A stretch of 64,000 nucleotides of DNA from an uncultured Pedosphaera sp. (GCA_903918755.1 CAIXFN010000034.1:62001-126000); one strand, 5' to 3'; positions 20,144-28,003 are shown, numbered from the stretch's first letter. Numbers and translations are program-made. The notes: generated by a model not told the origin, from the sequence alone.

Positions 20144-20319
20144 AGTGGAATCAAGGATCAGACTGACGGTTTCCGCGCAAAATTCAATCCGTTTCCGCAC
20201 TCCCCGCCCCATTGAAGTTTCCCGTCCCTTCTGTCCCAGGAATTCGGGCACACCCGGGCCCACGACCAGCGCTTTTACGGCCCGCCACCAAGGGACATTT
20301 AAAAATATTTCCGCAAAGT

Positions 20320-20357
20320 ACGAAGATGTTCGTTGACATCTACGAAAAAATTCGTAT
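20320..20357 (+). promoter_or_regulatory. Twin BlaI-type operators
   Basis: Two near-identical palindromes occur: TACGAAGATGTTCGTT (20320-20335) and TACGAAAAAATTCGTA (20342-20357). Their centres are 22 bases apart, two helical turns. The consensus TACGAA-N4-TTCGTW has the dyad form of BlaI/MecI operators, and both sites overlap the promoter of the blaI operon, implying autorepression. A further perfect repeat, AGATGT-N6-ACATCT (20325-20342), bridges the two. Confidence 0.75.
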
Positions 20358-20361
20358 GATG
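20334..20361 (+). promoter_or_regulatory. Sigma-70-type promoter of the blaI-M56-secretin operon
   Basis: A consensus -35 TTGACA (20334-20339) and near-consensus -10 TATGAT (20356-20361) stand 16 bases apart, 22 bases before the blaI ATG. The -35 overlaps the first operator and the -10 overlaps the end of the second, so repressor binding would block polymerase. Confidence 0.78.
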
Positions 20362-20383: not shown

Positions 20384-20767
20384 ATGAAAAAAACTCCGCC
20401 CAAACCCACCGACGCCGAGCTTTCCATTCTCCGCGTGCTCTGGCGGCTCGGCCCCGCCACGGTGCGCGCCATCCATGACGAACTGGCCCAGATCCAGGCG
20501 ACGGGCTACACCACCGCCTTGAAGATGTTGCAGATCATGACCGAAAAAGGTCTGGTCCGGCGGGATGAATCCGCCCGCTCGCACATTTATCAGGCCGTAA
20601 TGAGTGAGCAACAGGTGCAGCAACAACTGGTCGGTCATTTGCTGGAACGGGCCTTTGGCGGCTCGGCCCGCAAACTCGTCCTCCAGGCGCTCTCGGCCCG
20701 GAAAGCCACGCCGGCGGAGCTGGCGGAAATCCGCCAATTGATCGATGAACTGGAGGCCCGGCCATGA
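20384..20767 (+). CDS. blaI: BlaI/MecI/CopY family transcriptional repressor
   Basis: The 127-residue protein is a winged-helix repressor of the BlaI/MecI (penicillinase repressor) family. Family hallmarks are PTDAELSILRVLWRLGPATVRAIHDEL at the N-terminus, the recognition region YTTALKMLQIMTEKGLVRRDE, and a C-terminal dimerisation helix. In the known systems, a membrane M56 protease (BlaR1/MecR1) triggers cleavage of the repressor. Here the next gene encodes an M56 protein and overlaps blaI by four bases (ATGA), so the pair is translationally coupled. Two palindromic operators overlap its promoter. It probably represses the whole four-gene operon. A link to beta-lactams is not implied, as no beta-lactamase is nearby. 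Confidence 0.93.
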   Translation: MKKTPPKPTDAELSILRVLWRLGPATVRAIHDELAQIQATGYTTALKMLQIMTEKGLVRRDESARSHIYQAVMSEQQVQQQLVGHLLERAFGGSARKLVLQALSARKATPAELAEIRQLIDELEARP

Positions 20768-23700
20768 TGACCACCGCCTCCCAAGCCCTCCTGCAATGCC
20801 TTGGCTGGACCCTGGTCCATTTCCTCTGGCAGGGTCTGGCCATCGCTGTCTGGCTAGGGCTTTGCCTGCATGCCCTGCGCCGGAATCCGGCCAACCATCG
20901 CTATCTCGCCGGGTGCGCCGCCCTTCTCCTGATGGTGGCGTCCCCGTTGCTGACGTTTAATCGCTTGGTGGATCAACTGCCAGCCCCGCAGCCCAGATGG
21001 CAACGCGCCCCCGCCCCAATGATGGCCACTCGGCATGCCCTGCCCTTAACCATACCAATTATAGAACCCTCACCCCGGACGGTGAATTTGGTCCGAGGCC
21101 CGGCCAAACCATCGCCACTGAGTCTGCGCGAACGCTGGGAACTTGCGCTACCCTGGCTCGCGCTGCTCTGGGCAGCGGGAGTCGTGGCCTTTGGAATCCA
21201 ATTGCTGGCCGGTTGGTTTCACGTCCGCCGCAGCGCCCGGGACGCCGGCACGCTCCTGGAGGAACCGTGGGCGACCCGCCTCGCGGAATTGGCCGAGCGC
21301 CTCGGCCTGCGCCGCTCCGTGCGGCTCGTGCAATCCGCCTTGGTGGAAGTGCCCGCCACCATCGGCTGGTTGCGACCCGTGATCCTGTTGCCGGCCGGTT
21401 GCCTGACCGGCCTCAGTCCCAGCCAACTCGACGCCATTCTCGCCCACGAACTGGCCCACATCCGGCGGCACGACTATCTGGTCAATCTGCTGCAATGCGC
21501 GGTGGAAACCCTGCTGTTCTATCATCCCGCCGTCTGGTGGGCGTCCGGCCGCATCCGGGAAGCACGCGAATTTTGCTGTGATGATCTGGCCGTGGCCGCC
21601 TGCGGCAACCGGGTGGCTTATGCCCGCGCCTTGGCCACCCTGGAGGAATTGCGGCCCGCTTCCCTGGCCCTGGCAGCCTCAGGCGCCCCCCTGTTGCAGC
21701 GCATCCGCCGGCTCACCGCCCGCCCCCCGGTCACGACCGGCCCCGCCGGTTGGCTCGCCACCGGGGTGGTGACGCTGCTGGCGGTCACGGTTTTACTGGC
21801 CGCCCTGCCCGGCAACCGCGTTTGGGCCAGCGCCGGCGACGTCCTGCAACTCGCGCAAAACCTGACGCCCAGCCAGGCCTTCGCCCGGACCAACCGCAAT
21901 CTCGTCCATACTTCCAAGGGGCGACAAGCCATCATGGCCAAATTGGATGCCATTCCGGTGGATTACGCCCTCTGCGATGAAATGCCGCTGCGCCAGGTGG
22001 TGGAACAACTCAGTCGCCTCTCGCAAGCCCGCGATCCCGACCGCCAGGGAATCAACTTCATGCTCCTCCGGCAGTCACTCCCGCTGGGGGAAGTGGATCC
22101 CGTGACCGGCGCCATCGTGCCCGTCAACAATTCCGATCTTCCCGAAGTGGGCGCGGTGCTCATCACCATCAAGCCCGAAATGCGTGGCCTGCGCCTGCAT
22201 GATTTGCTCGAAATCATTGTCCGTAGCGCCAGCGCCCCCATCCGTTACACGGTTGAGGATTACGCGGTGGCCTTCCACCTGACCGCCGACCCGGCGGGGA
22301 TGTACACCCGAATCTTTCATGTGGATCCCAATACCTTCATCCAGGGCTTGGAAAATGTCACCGGGATCCAGTTCTCGGGTTCGCAAGCTGGCGGCAACGG
22401 TAGCACCGGCGGGGGTGGAGGTGGTGGCAACTCGGGTGGCGGCACCGGCGGGACGGGATCCGGCGTGATCATTCCGGGTGTCCAAATGGCTCCCGGCGGA
22501 GGCACCGGCGCGGGCGCGGGCGCCAACGGCGGCGGGACCGGGGGCGGGGCAACGGGCGGCGGGGTCAGCAACGTCACCCGCTCCACGCCGACCACGAACA
22601 CTCAGGCGGTGGTGCGTCAATTCTTTGGGGCGAACGGCGTTGACTTCAACCCCACCGGCCCCGGGGGCACCCAGAAACTCATCTTCCTGGACGAACGCAA
22701 CGGCACCCTCATGGTCCATGCCCCGCTGGAAGATTTGCAGAAAGTGGGCACCGCCTTGGAAAAGCTGAGCGCCACCAACGCCGCACCGATCACCAACGCG
22801 GTACCGGGGACCAACCAACCGGCGCCGCCGAAAAGGAAACCCGACGGGGCGAACGCCGCCCCCGCGGCCAACAAGGAGATCTTATTAGCCATGGCCGATA
22901 GCGGAGGAAACACCACCGACGAACGTCGGCTCATCGCGGAAGCCCGCGCCAACCGGCCCCCATCTGCCCCGGTCCCAGCGGCGACGGAACCGGGGGACGG
23001 ACTCCCCAACCACCCGCAGCCTTCCGGGGCGGGCTTGACTGATTTCGCCCTGGCGGATAGCCGTCTCCTGCTGGACAACGCCGCGCGCCGGCAATCGTTG
23101 CAACTGCAGTTGGAGGAAAATATAGTCGCCCTGCCCGTAGGCAAGGCGCTGCCGTTGGCCCTGGTCCTGGGCGAAATCAAGCAGCAATTGCCCCACCCGC
23201 TTGCGGCCAGCGAGGAAATTTTCTTTCGGTTCGCGCCGGAAAAAGAAAAAAGTCCGGCGAAAGCGAAAGAAAAATCGGATCCTGCGTCCCGCCAGCCCGA
23301 ATCATTGGCGGAGGTCAAAGTCACCCTCGCACCTGGACTGGGACAGCGTTCGCTCCGGCAGGCGCTGGAATTGATTTGTGCGGGAGCCAACCCACCCCTG
23401 ATGTTTGCCATTGCCGATGATGGCATCGTCCTGGCGCGGCGCGGCGCGGCGGATACCGGACTGCAAGCGCACACCTACCGCCTGACCACCGCCATTTTTC
23501 TGGCGGAGTTGGAGCGGGTCACAGCGCCTATTCCTTGGGCCCGCTTTGATCGCCAAAGCACCAACCACCTGCGGGCTCCCGTGGAGCAGTATCTCGCCAG
23601 CGTTGGGATTGATGCCTGGGAGACCAACCGGCTGGGACTTGTTCCCAAAATGGCGGACTTCAACCCGAATAACGGCGAGTTGTCCGTCCGGCTCCGATCC

Positions 23701-26016
23701 ACCGAAATCACCCGCCTGGGCGAGGTCCTGGACCGCTCCGGGTTGATCGCGCAAACGCCCGCGAAAAGAACCAAAACCAAGGGCCTGTCAACCATGATCT
23801 TCCGCGTCGAAGTGCCGGTGCTGCTCCAGGAAATGGAGCGGGTTTCCTCCCGGGATTCCGGTCTGGTCAAGGATCCGGATCCCACGGCCCGCACCCAACG
23901 TCTGCTGGACAATTATTTGGCCACGGTGGGCGTGAATTTGTCCGAACCAGGGGATGCGGCTGGCACCAAAAAGGCGGCCTTTTTCAGCGCGCTGAATGGC
24001 ACCTTGCTCGTCCGTGCCACGGCGGCGGATCTCGCACGCGTCGGCGAGATTGTAAAGCAAATGAACACCCGCGGCGCATCCGCCACCGGCTCAGGCCAGG
24101 CTTCCTATGGCGACCTGGCCCTCGCCAGCCGCGAAGCCTTGCACCGGCAGGCGGACGTGATTGAATTGCAACAAACGCTGACGGCCGCCCGCAAGGCGGA
24201 AAACCAGCAGGATTTCGCCACGGCGGCGCGGCTCTATGAGGCCGGTTACCTGCTGGCCCAACGCATCGGCACTCAGGCCGATAACGAGTCCCGGCAGATC
24301 ATCGCCGGGTTGGGTAGCGTCCAGTTCGAACTGGCGCGCCGCTTCCAGCAACAGCACGATTACACCAGCGCGGACGAACGCCTCCGTCGCCTGCTGGCGC
24401 TGGATCCCGAAAATGTCGCCGCCCGCGCGCTGTTCGAGGCCAACCAGGGTCTCCTCACCGCGCAAAACACCGGCCGGAGTCTCGCGCCCGCCACTGGCAC
24501 GAACACCCTGCAGGCGGCTGCGCTTGTGCAAAATGCCAAACGCCTCATCGGGCTCGGCCGTTTGGCGGAGGCCGGAGCGGAGTTGGAACAAGCCCTGAAA
24601 CTGGATCCCGAGGACGACGCCGCCGTCAACTTTCTCCGCATGGTTCGGGAGAGGATGCCTGCGGTGGTGCCCGTTGCACCCGCTCCGCCCACACCCGTAA
24701 CCAATAATCTGCCCGCACCCGCCGCCCCTGCAGCTTCGGCGGACAGTGACCAAACCAACCGGATGGCCACCGGCGAAATACCAACCGGTGAATCCATGAT
24801 CACCCGCACCTTCAAATTGGATTACGCACGCCTGCGAAATGGTCTTATCGCCGCCACGGGAAAATCACTCCCACCGGAAAACACCACGAATAAGGCGCCC
24901 GAGATAACGGCGGCCTTGCGCCAATATTTGACTGCGGCCGGAGTGGATTTCTCGACCAATTCCCCTGCGAATGTCGGCAAAGCCATCTTCTACAACCATC
25001 GCAAGGGCATGCTCTTTGTCCATGCCCCCCCGTCGGATCTGGAAGTGATCGCCGCAGCAGTCGAAGCCCTCGGGTATGTCCCGCCGCAGGTTAACCTGAA
25101 ACTCAAAGTCGCCGAAGTCGACCCGGATCGGGTTTCACCCGCCGCGCTGCAAGCACTTCTCGCAACCACCGGCGCCACCTTCAGCACCAACGAAACCGCC
25201 GCCATTCCGCTACCCAATTTTGCCGGTGCCACCAATATGTTTCACGATCCGGACCGGCCAATGACCAATGCCGCCCGGCAACAGTTCTTTGGCGAACTGA
25301 CGGAGCCGCAAACCCGGCAACTACAGGTAGCACTTTCCAACCTGCCCCCGGTCACGTGGTGGGAGGGACCGGAAATCACCACCGCAACCGGGCGGGATAG
25401 CCGACTGCAAAGGCTCGACGCCTTGAACGTGGCGACCGGAGTCACCGCAACCGGCCAAAAGGGCGGCACGGGCACCAATGCTCCCGGCGTAAATTACCAG
25501 ACCCAGGGCTTCGCCTGCGGACTCTCGGTGAATATTCATCCCACGGTAGCGGCGGACTCCTATACCATTCCCCTGTCGATCGGCCCCACTCTCACGGAGT
25601 TCGTCGGGTACGATGATCCTGCCAATTTTACCCCCATCGCCGCGTCGGTGAACGGCCACCCCATCACTTTATCCGACGTCGTCAGCGGGCCCCACGCCGT
25701 GGTCCCACTGCCCCGCTTCCGCGTCAGCCAGTTGGCGCTGGACCACCCGGGAATCTGGGACGGCCGGACCCTCCTGGCGGGCGGGCTGATCTCGGAAAGC
25801 GTCATTCATTTCAAAGACAAAGTACCCTACCTCGGGGATGTGCCCTTGATGGGCCAGCTTTTCACGAAAGAGTCCAGCAGCAAACAGCGCAAACTATTGC
25901 TGCTCTTCATCACCCCCACACTCATCAACCCCGACGGCTCGCGGTTTCATACCGATGGTGATATGCCGTGGGTTTCGCCGAATCGACGGCAACAACGCAA
26001 AGGAGAAAAACCATGA
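20764..26016 (+). CDS. M56 (BlaR1-like) membrane metalloprotease fused to repeated secretin-like modules
   Basis: A 1750-residue fusion. Residues 1-360 form an M56 peptidase: four likely membrane helices (about 10-35, 46-62, 135-155, 332-355), HELAH at 228-232 and EAREFCCDDLAVAACG around 266-281. Residues about 400-510 resemble a secretin N0/STN domain (IPVDYALCDEMPLRQVVEQLSRL; RLHDLLEIIVRSASAPIRYTV). A module with a T-x-x-[FY]-[HRK] strand, a QYL-A-GVD segment and a G-x-L-x-V-x-A-x-x-D-L end recurs about four times (516-672, 901-995, 1011-1100, 1345-1438), with a Gly-rich linker inside the first. TPR-like helices fill about 1140-1300. The C-terminal 300 residues resemble the secretin domain: NLKLKVAEVD opens it, and KVPYLGDVPLMGQLF plus LLLLFITPTLINPDGSRF close it. 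Known BlaR1 proteins instead end in a penicillin-binding sensor domain. Sensing of an envelope component is inferred. Confidence 0.85.
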   Translation: MMTTASQALLQCLGWTLVHFLWQGLAIAVWLGLCLHALRRNPANHRYLAGCAALLLMVASPLLTFNRLVDQLPAPQPRWQRAPAPMMATRHALPLTIPIIEPSPRTVNLVRGPAKPSPLSLRERWELALPWLALLWAAGVVAFGIQLLAGWFHVRRSARDAGTLLEEPWATRLAELAERLGLRRSVRLVQSALVEVPATIGWLRPVILLPAGCLTGLSPSQLDAILAHELAHIRRHDYLVNLLQCAVETLLFYHPAVWWASGRIREAREFCCDDLAVAACGNRVAYARALATLEELRPASLALAASGAPLLQRIRRLTARPPVTTGPAGWLATGVVTLLAVTVLLAALPGNRVWASAGDVLQLAQNLTPSQAFARTNRNLVHTSKGRQAIMAKLDAIPVDYALCDEMPLRQVVEQLSRLSQARDPDRQGINFMLLRQSLPLGEVDPVTGAIVPVNNSDLPEVGAVLITIKPEMRGLRLHDLLEIIVRSASAPIRYTVEDYAVAFHLTADPAGMYTRIFHVDPNTFIQGLENVTGIQFSGSQAGGNGSTGGGGGGGNSGGGTGGTGSGVIIPGVQMAPGGGTGAGAGANGGGTGGGATGGGVSNVTRSTPTTNTQAVVRQFFGANGVDFNPTGPGGTQKLIFLDERNGTLMVHAPLEDLQKVGTALEKLSATNAAPITNAVPGTNQPAPPKRKPDGANAAPAANKEILLAMADSGGNTTDERRLIAEARANRPPSAPVPAATEPGDGLPNHPQPSGAGLTDFALADSRLLLDNAARRQSLQLQLEENIVALPVGKALPLALVLGEIKQQLPHPLAASEEIFFRFAPEKEKSPAKAKEKSDPASRQPESLAEVKVTLAPGLGQRSLRQALELICAGANPPLMFAIADDGIVLARRGAADTGLQAHTYRLTTAIFLAELERVTAPIPWARFDRQSTNHLRAPVEQYLASVGIDAWETNRLGLVPKMADFNPNNGELSVRLRSTEITRLGEVLDRSGLIAQTPAKRTKTKGLSTMIFRVEVPVLLQEMERVSSRDSGLVKDPDPTARTQRLLDNYLATVGVNLSEPGDAAGTKKAAFFSALNGTLLVRATAADLARVGEIVKQMNTRGASATGSGQASYGDLALASREALHRQADVIELQQTLTAARKAENQQDFATAARLYEAGYLLAQRIGTQADNESRQIIAGLGSVQFELARRFQQQHDYTSADERLRRLLALDPENVAARALFEANQGLLTAQNTGRSLAPATGTNTLQAAALVQNAKRLIGLGRLAEAGAELEQALKLDPEDDAAVNFLRMVRERMPAVVPVAPAPPTPVTNNLPAPAAPAASADSDQTNRMATGEIPTGESMITRTFKLDYARLRNGLIAATGKSLPPENTTNKAPEITAALRQYLTAAGVDFSTNSPANVGKAIFYNHRKGMLFVHAPPSDLEVIAAAVEALGYVPPQVNLKLKVAEVDPDRVSPAALQALLATTGATFSTNETAAIPLPNFAGATNMFHDPDRPMTNAARQQFFGELTEPQTRQLQVALSNLPPVTWWEGPEITTATGRDSRLQRLDALNVATGVTATGQKGGTGTNAPGVNYQTQGFACGLSVNIHPTVAADSYTIPLSIGPTLTEFVGYDDPANFTPIAASVNGHPITLSDVVSGPHAVVPLPRFRVSQLALDHPGIWDGRTLLAGGLISESVIHFKDKVPYLGDVPLMGQLFTKESSSKQRKLLLLFITPTLINPDGSRFHTDGDMPWVSPNRRQQRKGEKP

Positions 26017-27029
26017 AACTTTGGTCCACGAAAATGCTGATGTGGGGAGTGTTCGAACTGGCGAGTCAGGCCGGGGCGCAGAATTTGCCCGCACCCATTC
26101 AGCCCCTGCCCACCCCGCCGCAAGTCAGCGTGAAAATTAAAGTGGCCGAAATCGACCCGGACCAGATTTCGCCGGCCGCTTTGGAAATACTGCTCGCCAC
26201 GACGGGCGCTGCCTTCTCGCTCAGTGTGGCGGACGCCATTCCCCGGCCCAATTCCACCGGTACTACGAACTTGTTCCAAGATCCGGACCAGTCGATGGCC
26301 AATGCCACCCGTCACCAATTCTTTGGCGAACTGACCGCGGCGCAGACCCGGCGACTGCAGGACAAACTGACCGCCCTAACCGCCGTCACCTGGTGGGAGA
26401 GCCCGGAGATCGCCGTCGAATCCGGCCGCGAAACTTCCGTCCAACGATTCAGCTCCCAAATGGTGATAACGGGAAAAACAAACTTGAGCCCCACTCCCGG
26501 CAGCAGGTCGAATTTGCCAGTTTTTAATTACGAAACGCAGGATTTTTTGCCGGGGCTTACCATCAACCTTCGCCCGGTCATCTTAACAAATCTCCTGGGA
26601 ATTTCGCTGCAGCTCACGCCCGCTACGACGGAATTCATCGGCCTTGATGAAGCGGGCAAATTCATTCCGACCAAGGCGGTAGTCCAGGGGAACCCGGTTC
26701 CGCTGACTTCGGTCTTGCCGCTTCCCCACTTCCGGGTACGCCAACTGGCCTTCGACTACCCGGTCGTCTTCGATGGACAAACCCTGTTGGTGGGCGGCAT
26801 CCAGTATCATGGCCCCGGCCACGTGTTGACGGGCGGAGTGGAACCCCTTGGCGCTTTCACGCCGGATCAAATCGCGGAAATAACCGCCGCCGCAAAAAAA
26901 CCAAATCAATTGCTGCTCTTCATCACTCCCACGCTTATCAACCCCGACGGCACGCGGTTTCATTCCGGGGATGAAATGCCCCTGGCGGCGCCGCGCGGAC
27001 CAGTCGAGCCCGGAGAACAAAAGAAATGA
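26013..27029 (+). CDS. Exported secretin-like domain protein, paralogue of the M56 fusion C-terminus
   Basis: The 338-residue protein has a short signal-like N-terminus (MKLWSTKMLMWGVFELASQAGAQN). The rest matches the C-terminal module of the preceding gene closely: VKIKVAEIDPDQISPAALEILLATTGAAF against LKLKVAEVDPDRVSPAALQALLATTG, RHQFFGELTAAQTRRLQ, WWESPEI, PLPHFRVRQLAFD, and LLLFITPTLINPDGTRFH. These are secretin C-terminal-type signatures, but the length is short and the KVPYLGDVP motif of its neighbour is replaced by a GPGHVLTGG stretch. The ATG overlaps the upstream stop (ATGA) and follows AAAGGAG, so it is coupled. Ring-forming ability cannot be judged from sequence. Confidence 0.8.
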   Translation: MKLWSTKMLMWGVFELASQAGAQNLPAPIQPLPTPPQVSVKIKVAEIDPDQISPAALEILLATTGAAFSLSVADAIPRPNSTGTTNLFQDPDQSMANATRHQFFGELTAAQTRRLQDKLTALTAVTWWESPEIAVESGRETSVQRFSSQMVITGKTNLSPTPGSRSNLPVFNYETQDFLPGLTINLRPVILTNLLGISLQLTPATTEFIGLDEAGKFIPTKAVVQGNPVPLTSVLPLPHFRVRQLAFDYPVVFDGQTLLVGGIQYHGPGHVLTGGVEPLGAFTPDQIAEITAAAKKPNQLLLFITPTLINPDGTRFHSGDEMPLAAPRGPVEPGEQKK

Positions 27030-28003
27030 GGAGGGTCGGGGCGCTATTAGTCTTGGCGGCGTGGCTGGGCACCGGAGGGCACGGCCAGGCGCAGGCAACG
27101 CCACAGTCGCACCAGAGTCGAAGCAACCGGGCGGAAGTGAACATCCAAGTGAAGGTTGCCGCCCTGGACGAGAACCGTGTTTCGCTTGGGGCGCTCCGGG
27201 ACTTGCTCGGAGTAACCGGAGCGCAGTGGGTGACCAATGAGACAGTGGCACTGCCGCGGCTGCCATATCGGAGTTTTACCAACGGCATGCCGCGTCCAGA
27301 CCGGGGATTCAGCAATTCCGTGGCGCGGCAATTCAGCGGCAGGTTGACCAGTTTGCAAGCCCAACAACTGGCGCAAAAATTGACGGGGATAAACGGGGTC
27401 ACCTGGCTGCCGGTGCCGGAGGTGACCACGATGTCCGGTCAGCGGGCACTGATCCAGAATGGCAACGTTCTTACGGTGGTTACCGGAGCGGTGCCGGCGA
27501 CGGGAACCAATACCTCCGGCATCAATTATCAAACGGAAAAAGTGTTGGTGGGACTGGAGGTGGGGTTGCAGACGCGCGAATCGCCTGATGGTTTCACGTT
27601 CGAACTGAGCGCCACTCCGGTCGCGACAGATTTCCTGGGTTACGATCATCCGGGGCAGACCGCGCCTGCGTCCAATGGCGTGCCGTCGGTTGTTGTGCCT
27701 TTACCACGATTCCGGGTTGGCCAATTGCAGGGGGATGCGAGGCTTTATGACGGTCAGACCTTGTTGCTCGGCGGCTTAACCCGGGAAACGGTCGTGACCT
27801 TGAAAGACAAGGCGCCCATGCTAGCGGATATCCCGCTGTTGGGGCGGGCGATCCAAGACCAAAGGCTGGGCAAGCGGCATGAGCGGTTGCTCATTTTCAT
27901 CAAGGTGCAAGCCATCCATCCGGATGGGTCGCGCATTTATTCGGATGATGAATTGCCGTTTGATCGGAACACCCTTCCGCCGCCGTCGGGGGAGAGGAAG
28001 TAG
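27026..28003 (+). CDS. Exported secretin-like domain protein, third paralogue
   Basis: The 325-residue protein has a clear signal peptide (RRVGALLVLAAWLGTGGHGQAQA). It repeats the same module: VNIQVKVAALDENRVSLGALRDLLGVTGAQW, ARQFSGRLTSLQAQQLAQKL, VTWLPVPEVTT, INYQTEKVLVGLEVGLQTR, PLPRFRVGQLQGD, a DGQTLLLGGL strand, KDKAPMLADIPLLGRAIQ and RLLIFIKVQAIHPDGSRI. The last two match secretin family ends. It overlaps the upstream gene by four bases (ATGA) and is the last gene of the operon. The next gene is convergent, starting its 3' end 12 bases later, with no obvious terminator between. Confidence 0.8.
   Translation: MRRVGALLVLAAWLGTGGHGQAQATPQSHQSRSNRAEVNIQVKVAALDENRVSLGALRDLLGVTGAQWVTNETVALPRLPYRSFTNGMPRPDRGFSNSVARQFSGRLTSLQAQQLAQKLTGINGVTWLPVPEVTTMSGQRALIQNGNVLTVVTGAVPATGTNTSGINYQTEKVLVGLEVGLQTRESPDGFTFELSATPVATDFLGYDHPGQTAPASNGVPSVVVPLPRFRVGQLQGDARLYDGQTLLLGGLTRETVVTLKDKAPMLADIPLLGRAIQDQRLGKRHERLLIFIKVQAIHPDGSRIYSDDELPFDRNTLPPPSGERK

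Follow-up and report, generated by a model that had tools for sequence, protein, structure and literature searches.

In an uncultured Pedosphaera sp., a rearranged copy of PilQ, the verrucomicrobial type IV pilus secretin (Amuc_1098 family), takes the place of the sensing half of an M56 protease. The gene for this fused protein lies in the analysed stretch of 64,000 nucleotides (GCA_903918755.1, CAIXFN010000034.1:62001-126000; the window) and is the second gene of a four-gene operon (20384-28003) that runs from blaI through the M56 gene to the genes for P0003 and P0004. ORF calls and sequence confirm the operon as it had been outlined in a first-pass annotation, namely blaI, a 1750-residue M56 gene and two exported-type genes, each exactly at its annotated place and with an ATGA overlap at all three gene joints. 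The flanking genes on either side lie on the opposite strand, and the operon is therefore bounded. Its features, in window coordinates, are as follows.

20319-20334, plus strand: upstream BlaI-type operator TACGAA-gatg-TTCGTT, one mismatch to the dyad TACGAAN4TTCGTA; the same pair is found in relatives
20333-20338, plus strand: -35 box TTGACA, located between both operators, read from the sequence; 16-base spacer to TATGAT
20341-20356, plus strand: downstream BlaI-type operator TACGAA-aaaa-TTCGTA, a perfect dyad that fills the -35/-10 spacer
20355-20360, plus strand: -10 box TATGAT, read from the sequence
20384-20767, plus strand: blaI, BlaI/MecI-family repressor of 127 aa (PF03965, 9.1e-28)
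20764-26016, plus strand: M56 protease (P0002) fused to rearranged PilQ, 1750 aa in one open frame (PF05569, 6.4e-35; PF00263, 5.7e-18)
20764-21813, plus strand: M56 part, residues 1-350, four membrane helices and gluzincin domain (AlphaFold model, helix positions)
21445-21582, plus strand: active site H228-E-L-A-H232, D237, E269xxxD273, invariant in 42 M56 sequences
21880-22788, plus strand: PilQ-derived STN/N0-N1 region with Gly-rich loop, residues 373-675 (43% identity, 4e-44, to native PilQ 254-567)
23041-24093, plus strand: middle region, residues 760-1110, with weak matches to native PilQ (N1-like unit 1042-1101, 2e-6; weak STN-like 848-912, 0.006)
24097-24654, plus strand: PilQ-derived TPR region, residues 1112-1297 (40% identity, 8e-37, to native PilQ 24-215)
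24886-25971, plus strand: PilQ-derived N1-N3-beta (secretin) region, residues 1375-1736 (39% identity, 4e-73, to native PilQ 501-885)
25822-25863, plus strand: secretin signature motif VPYLGDVPLMGQLF, kept in the fused copy (alignment)
26013-27029, plus strand: P0003, N3-beta paralogue of 338 aa with signal-peptide-like N-terminus, signature motif lost (49% identity to the fused secretin domain)
27026-28003, plus strand: P0004, N3-beta paralogue of 325 aa with signal-peptide-like N-terminus, motif altered to PMLADIPLLGRAI (PF00263, 7.6e-19; NF042912, 1.8e-17)

The sequence 5' of blaI reads TACGAAgatgTTCGT-TGACATC-TACGAAaaaaTTCGTA. Even with up to 3 mismatches the double operator is unique to this operon in the genome of the window. 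Among 320 genomes of the order it is present in 16 (2 mismatches allowed), once per genome and always directly 5' of a blaI-M56 pair (the case in G128 was checked separately), while a reversed-control motif gave zero matches in the same scan. Planctomycetota relatives carry the same double site ahead of blaI. A wider BlaI regulon was considered and discarded, as the two lone operator-like sites in the genome fall within coding frames and are no more than expected by chance. Since the double operator occurs once in the genome and always ahead of blaI-M56, the regulatory loop appears to be closed, with the operon's own products as its predicted output; BlaI may also control other genes through a site that is weaker or of another kind. 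The fusions of clade C (L143, L144, L176-L187) have a different double operator, CTCTACA-N2-TGTAGAG, in the same promoter layout.

The product of blaI belongs to the BlaI/MecI family (Penicillinase_R domain, 97.4 bits against a cut-off of 22.6). P0002 is likewise a clear M56 protein (121.2 bits vs 31; Peptidase_M56 match at residues 124-299), with the HExxH motif and the downstream glutamate present (H228/E229/H232/E269/D273); the HELAH of the first-pass annotation corresponds to residues 228-232. Spacing of these residues is that of S. aureus BlaR1, where the catalytic residues are H201ExxH, D210 and E242xxxD246 (PMC9834060), and at the level of sequence a BlaR1-type active site is intact. 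A PDB sequence search with the M56 part gave no match, but the AlphaFold model of residues 1-700 did, and its top six PDB matches are all S. aureus BlaR1. Hydrophobic helices at residues 17-35, 47-65, 127-145 and 330-348 would place everything past residue 350 in the periplasm, like in BlaR1.

The pair is thus similar to BlaI-BlaR1 and MecI-MecR1 of S. aureus (PMC9834060, PMC7593790) in its BlaI-family repressor and in an M56 gluzincin whose catalytic residues and their spacing are identical, and four membrane helices followed by a C-terminal extracytoplasmic domain are common to P0002 and BlaR1. The ectodomain of BlaR1 resembles class D beta-lactamases, relatives of the signal-binding proteins (PMC9834060, PMC7593790). 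In contrast to BlaR1 and MecR1, the ectodomain of P0002 is derived from PilQ, a resistance gene is absent and its own operon is the sole target found. No penicillin-binding/transpeptidase or class D beta-lactamase-like domain was detected in P0002 by Pfam or NCBIfam, in agreement with the earlier remark that the usual sensor domain is lacking. Although BlaI and M56 come from the families used in beta-lactam (BlaR1-like) and copper (CopY-like) responses, an ordinary response of either kind is extremely unlikely here: besides the missing penicillin-binding domain, neither a beta-lactamase nor a transporter gene is present in the operon or under operator control, and scores fall far below the cut-offs for the BlaR1 sensor model NF000326 (82.8 vs 400 bits) and for CopY (48.5 vs 122).

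Residue mapping by BLAST against the genome's own PilQ revealed that the entire PilQ is present after residue 370 of P0002, in the order N0/N1, TPR and N1-N3-beta, with extra N1-like sequence in between. In the same 1750-residue frame Pfam identifies Secretin (PF00263, residues 1535-1721, 65.5 bits vs 27.5), Secretin_N (3.5e-6) and TPR_2 (5e-4). The native PilQ (L146, 899 aa) is encoded downstream of a pilM-like gene and two small pilus genes, as we read the identities of these genes, and has NF042912 (Amuc_1098 type IV pilus secretin) as its best NCBIfam match (2.3e-96). The same model is the best NCBIfam match of P0002 (5.8e-48) and of P0004, and its cut-off of 750 bits is missed by the fused (163.5) and the native protein (323.6) alike. 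P0003 has no Pfam match, yet it is a clear paralogue of the secretin domain of P0002. In Akkermansia, Amuc_1098 is the PilQ of the outer membrane (PMC4960237). The TPR, N0/STN, N1, N3 and beta domains of Amuc_1098/PilQ (PMC4960237; NF042912) are all present and homologous in the window copy; unlike Amuc_1098/PilQ, this copy is shuffled, contains extra N1-like units, stands behind an inner-membrane protease and outside the pil locus, and evolves faster, and in its fused relatives the signature motif is often lost. A frameshift or assembly artefact could be dismissed as the cause of the fusion because the same fusion is open from end to end in other genomes. The STN/N0-like domain, the TPR and the secretin-type C-terminus recognised in the first-pass annotation are borne out by homology, and its view that secretin modules had replaced the sensor part stands in a refined form: the source is the lineage's own PilQ, in shuffled order.

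The C-terminal 378 residues were modelled (pLDDT 66), and the 38 significant PDB matches of the model are all secretins, consistent with the secretin-related folds proposed past residue 360. The beta domain is complete in the model, and GspD, PilQ, InvG and pIV are matched over nearly the whole length, with low TM-scores of about 0.3 which we attribute to the flexibility of a single chain taken from a ring and to moderate model quality. The moderate pLDDT (66-67) is in turn due to the shallower alignment, which was made of window and related-locus sequences without native PilQs.

A complete beta domain would suit a working secretin, in which the fused protein multimerises and its beta domain enters the outer membrane to form a trans-envelope channel that M56 anchors in the inner membrane; P0003 and P0004 would contribute further subunits to the barrel, and BlaI/M56 would set the dose only. 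The exported appearance of P0003 and P0004 and the retention of the signature motif in P0002, in the fusion of the same-family genome G004 and in the fusions of family f52 are in line with such a channel. Of the 30 native PilQs, 29 retain the signature PxLGDIPxxG, whereas it is altered in P0004, replaced in P0003 and absent from the fusion of the same-genus relative G001, the second copy of G007 (same family), nearly all clade C and several Planctomycetota copies. Structural papers describe the most conserved secretin loop, located beside the lip, as amphipathic and probably required for touching the outer membrane (PMC6532946, PMC7545093), and published structures treat it as the membrane-insertion element (PMC6532946); equating the motif with this loop by position is our own reading. 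Loss of the motif in many fused copies makes a trans-envelope channel less likely, and its repeated loss among related fusions would argue against a pore as the common function.

Comparison of the window copy with G001 gave dN/dS values of 0.12-0.66, below 1 in all parts, with synonymous sites near saturation; by this measure all parts are under purifying selection. Between the two species the fused STN/N0 is 69% identical as compared to 74% for native PilQ, while the fused beta domain is 50% identical as compared to 89% (z = 4.96) and evolves approximately six times faster than that of native PilQ (dN 0.54 vs 0.09). Stronger constraint on N0 than on the beta domain is not a rule for all fusions, as it is true for the window-G001 pair only and other pairs differ. 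Taken together, the motif loss and the conservation contrast would favour, with moderate confidence, a sensor acting on PilQ contacts over a pore, and the working secretin seems improbable to us.

Approximately 28 distinct M56 genes with a secretin domain, nearly always behind blaI, were found in Verrucomicrobiota and Planctomycetota among loci picked by their likeness to the window M56, so that these counts are not a share of all M56 proteins. The 126-row M56 tree holds 27 secretin-fused genes besides that of the window and needs 10 state changes, a rough count as some of the unfused rows are truncated contigs. Fusions are present in G001 (1400 aa), G004 (873 aa, M56-N0-beta) and G007 (1633 aa, M56-beta-TPR-N0-N1-beta), as well as in other families of the order, and those of Planctomycetota range from 1219 to 2577 aa with up to three secretin domains; two of these Planctomycetota proteins (L043, 1954-9126; L055, 12486-19163) exceed 2200 aa and have up to three secretin domains per chain. 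In the nearest relatives the operon seemingly consists of blaI-M56 alone. The blaI-M56-secretin order thus recurs in both phyla, and our literature search found no published description of it, as the first-pass annotation had supposed; one candidate, PMC12578637, was set aside because its matches were reagent numbers and an unrelated reference.

All verrucomicrobial fused secretins fall inside the PilQ clade (100*), even though five further secretins are encoded in the genome of the window. Fusions from the window's family lie, in the secretin trees, within the PilQ clade of that family (100*), those of f52 adjoin an f52 PilQ (91) and two clade C fusions group with another PilQ (99*); the verrucomicrobial copies are placed between native PilQs and for the most part follow lineage. 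Planctomycetota fused secretins are set apart (100*), with no close counterpart among the native secretins sampled. One origin for all verrucomicrobial fusions was rejected (AU p = 0.027), while holding families A and B together was not (p = 0.25). These placements and the AU test imply that capture took place at least twice in Verrucomicrobiota and once more in Planctomycetota. The exchange in G007 is recent, as its fused STN/N0 is 88% identical to that of its own PilQ (130/148).

Pfam domains on 73 unfused M56 ectodomains include CarboxypepD_reg (15), HEAT (7), TonB_C (5), SecDF_P1_head (4), GNVR (3), AhpC (2) and others; the M56 module thus exchanges its ectodomains freely, several of them being drawn from envelope machines. 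M56-TonB_C proteins (5/73) also belong to the BlaI-M56 type and likewise take their periplasmic domain from a different envelope system; they differ in that TonB is an energy transducer and PilQ a many-fold outer membrane ring. We found no study of either the M56-TonB_C or the M56-PilQ kind in the literature search. In G058 the M56 gene carries FliF (PF01514, 4.3e-34) instead of a secretin, 66% identical to that genome's own flagellar FliF as compared to 55% to others; the flagellar gene stands in a fliE-fliF-fliG-like run, its neighbours being named by us from sequence. After this M56-FliF (L139, G058:C230, 3937-8760) comes an ORF, joined to it by ATGA, that combines another FliF-like part with TPR and STN, and then a secretin with LysM. 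Two loci of the same M56/operator clade (L158 and L164, in G125 and G117) have a Wzz/GNVR-like coiled-coil ectodomain instead of a secretin. Tandem blaI-M56 pairs are seen at L042, L049, L052, L055 and L072, where the second pair, just upstream, is of a different M56 clade, has a different upstream repeat and, at L042, carries an AhpC/TSA domain. The genome of the window (G000) has another M56 protein with a DUF1573 and cytochrome c ectodomain (L151, C5) and an open frame of about 3980 residues with a secretin domain at its end (L205, C49, 48000-67000).

Such variety bears on whether a link to the pilus exists at all. The secretin modules may be a generic oligomerisation or ligand-binding ectodomain, ring proteins being handy for clustering, and some other envelope stress may be sensed. 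The presence of TonB_C, SecDF_P1, GNVR/Wzz, FliF, HEAT and AhpC in surveyed M56 proteins, non-secretin proteins of such kinds within the same operator clade, and Planctomycetota copies that are not PilQ all fit this explanation. Nevertheless, every verrucomicrobial fusion sampled traces back to PilQ and not one to any other secretin of the genome, and the copies of G007 and G058 are closest to their own machine proteins; we consider it unlikely.

In G058 blaI is cut short, its DNA-binding half being lost and its C-terminal half left, and no operator was seen at the M56-FliF locus, so this locus may be decaying. Together with an internal stop in the G061 locus (L129) and the fast evolution of the beta domain, this might indicate a drifting relic, a chance fusion retained without function. 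Against it stand the 5.2 kb open frame, intact catalytic residues and operators, dN/dS below 1 everywhere and a layout maintained across several genera, which make a relic very unlikely.

The best explanation, in our view, is an envelope sensor that regulates its own operon and monitors the PilQ/type IV pilus machine by means of homotypic contacts, although we hold it tentatively and at somewhat less than an even chance. Bound to both operators at the promoter, BlaI would repress its own operon. Tethered to the inner membrane, the PilQ-like ectodomain would touch its presumed ligand, native PilQ or its inner-membrane partners, through N0 and TPR contacts and so read out the assembly state of the pilus machine. 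An altered contact would activate the cytoplasmic protease, and cleavage of BlaI would then lead, if the response runs in the direction that we infer, to more sensor and more of the two exported PilQ-beta paralogues. What P0003 and P0004 do is a guess: they may serve as co-assembling, buffering or decoy subunits. This sensor is favoured by the intact M56 fold and catalytic residues, NF042912 as the best match, the nesting in the PilQ clade, the unique double operator, purifying selection throughout with an STN almost as well conserved as the native one (G001 pair), and the G007 and G058 copies being closest to their own PilQ and own FliF. Weighing against it, the STN-versus-beta contrast is limited to one species pair, a closed loop without another target gives no evident benefit and the nearest relatives have blaI-M56 alone, the many unrelated M56 ectodomains (HEAT, CarboxypepD_reg, TonB_C, SecDF) suggest that capture may be promiscuous, and the Planctomycetota copies are not near any sampled native secretin.

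The origin from PilQ, the double-operator promoter and the recurrence go beyond the first-pass annotation; the fusions show a ready exchange of ectodomains among M56 sensors. A wider reading, possible but on the doubtful side, is that BlaI-M56 is a surveillance kit for trans-envelope machines that works via captured ring subunits (several times PilQ, in one case FliF and perhaps also Wzz/GNVR and TonB), in which case the protease would sense the assembly or occupancy of a machine and feed back on transcription. To our knowledge, how bacteria sense the correct assembly of secretin, pilus or flagellar rings is a largely open question, and a self-regulating protease that carries a duplicate of the pore of its own cell's pilus would offer a direct, testable entry to it. 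BlaR1-type signalling is known mainly from beta-lactam resistance; if the proposed role is true, it would extend to monitoring the cell's own envelope machines.
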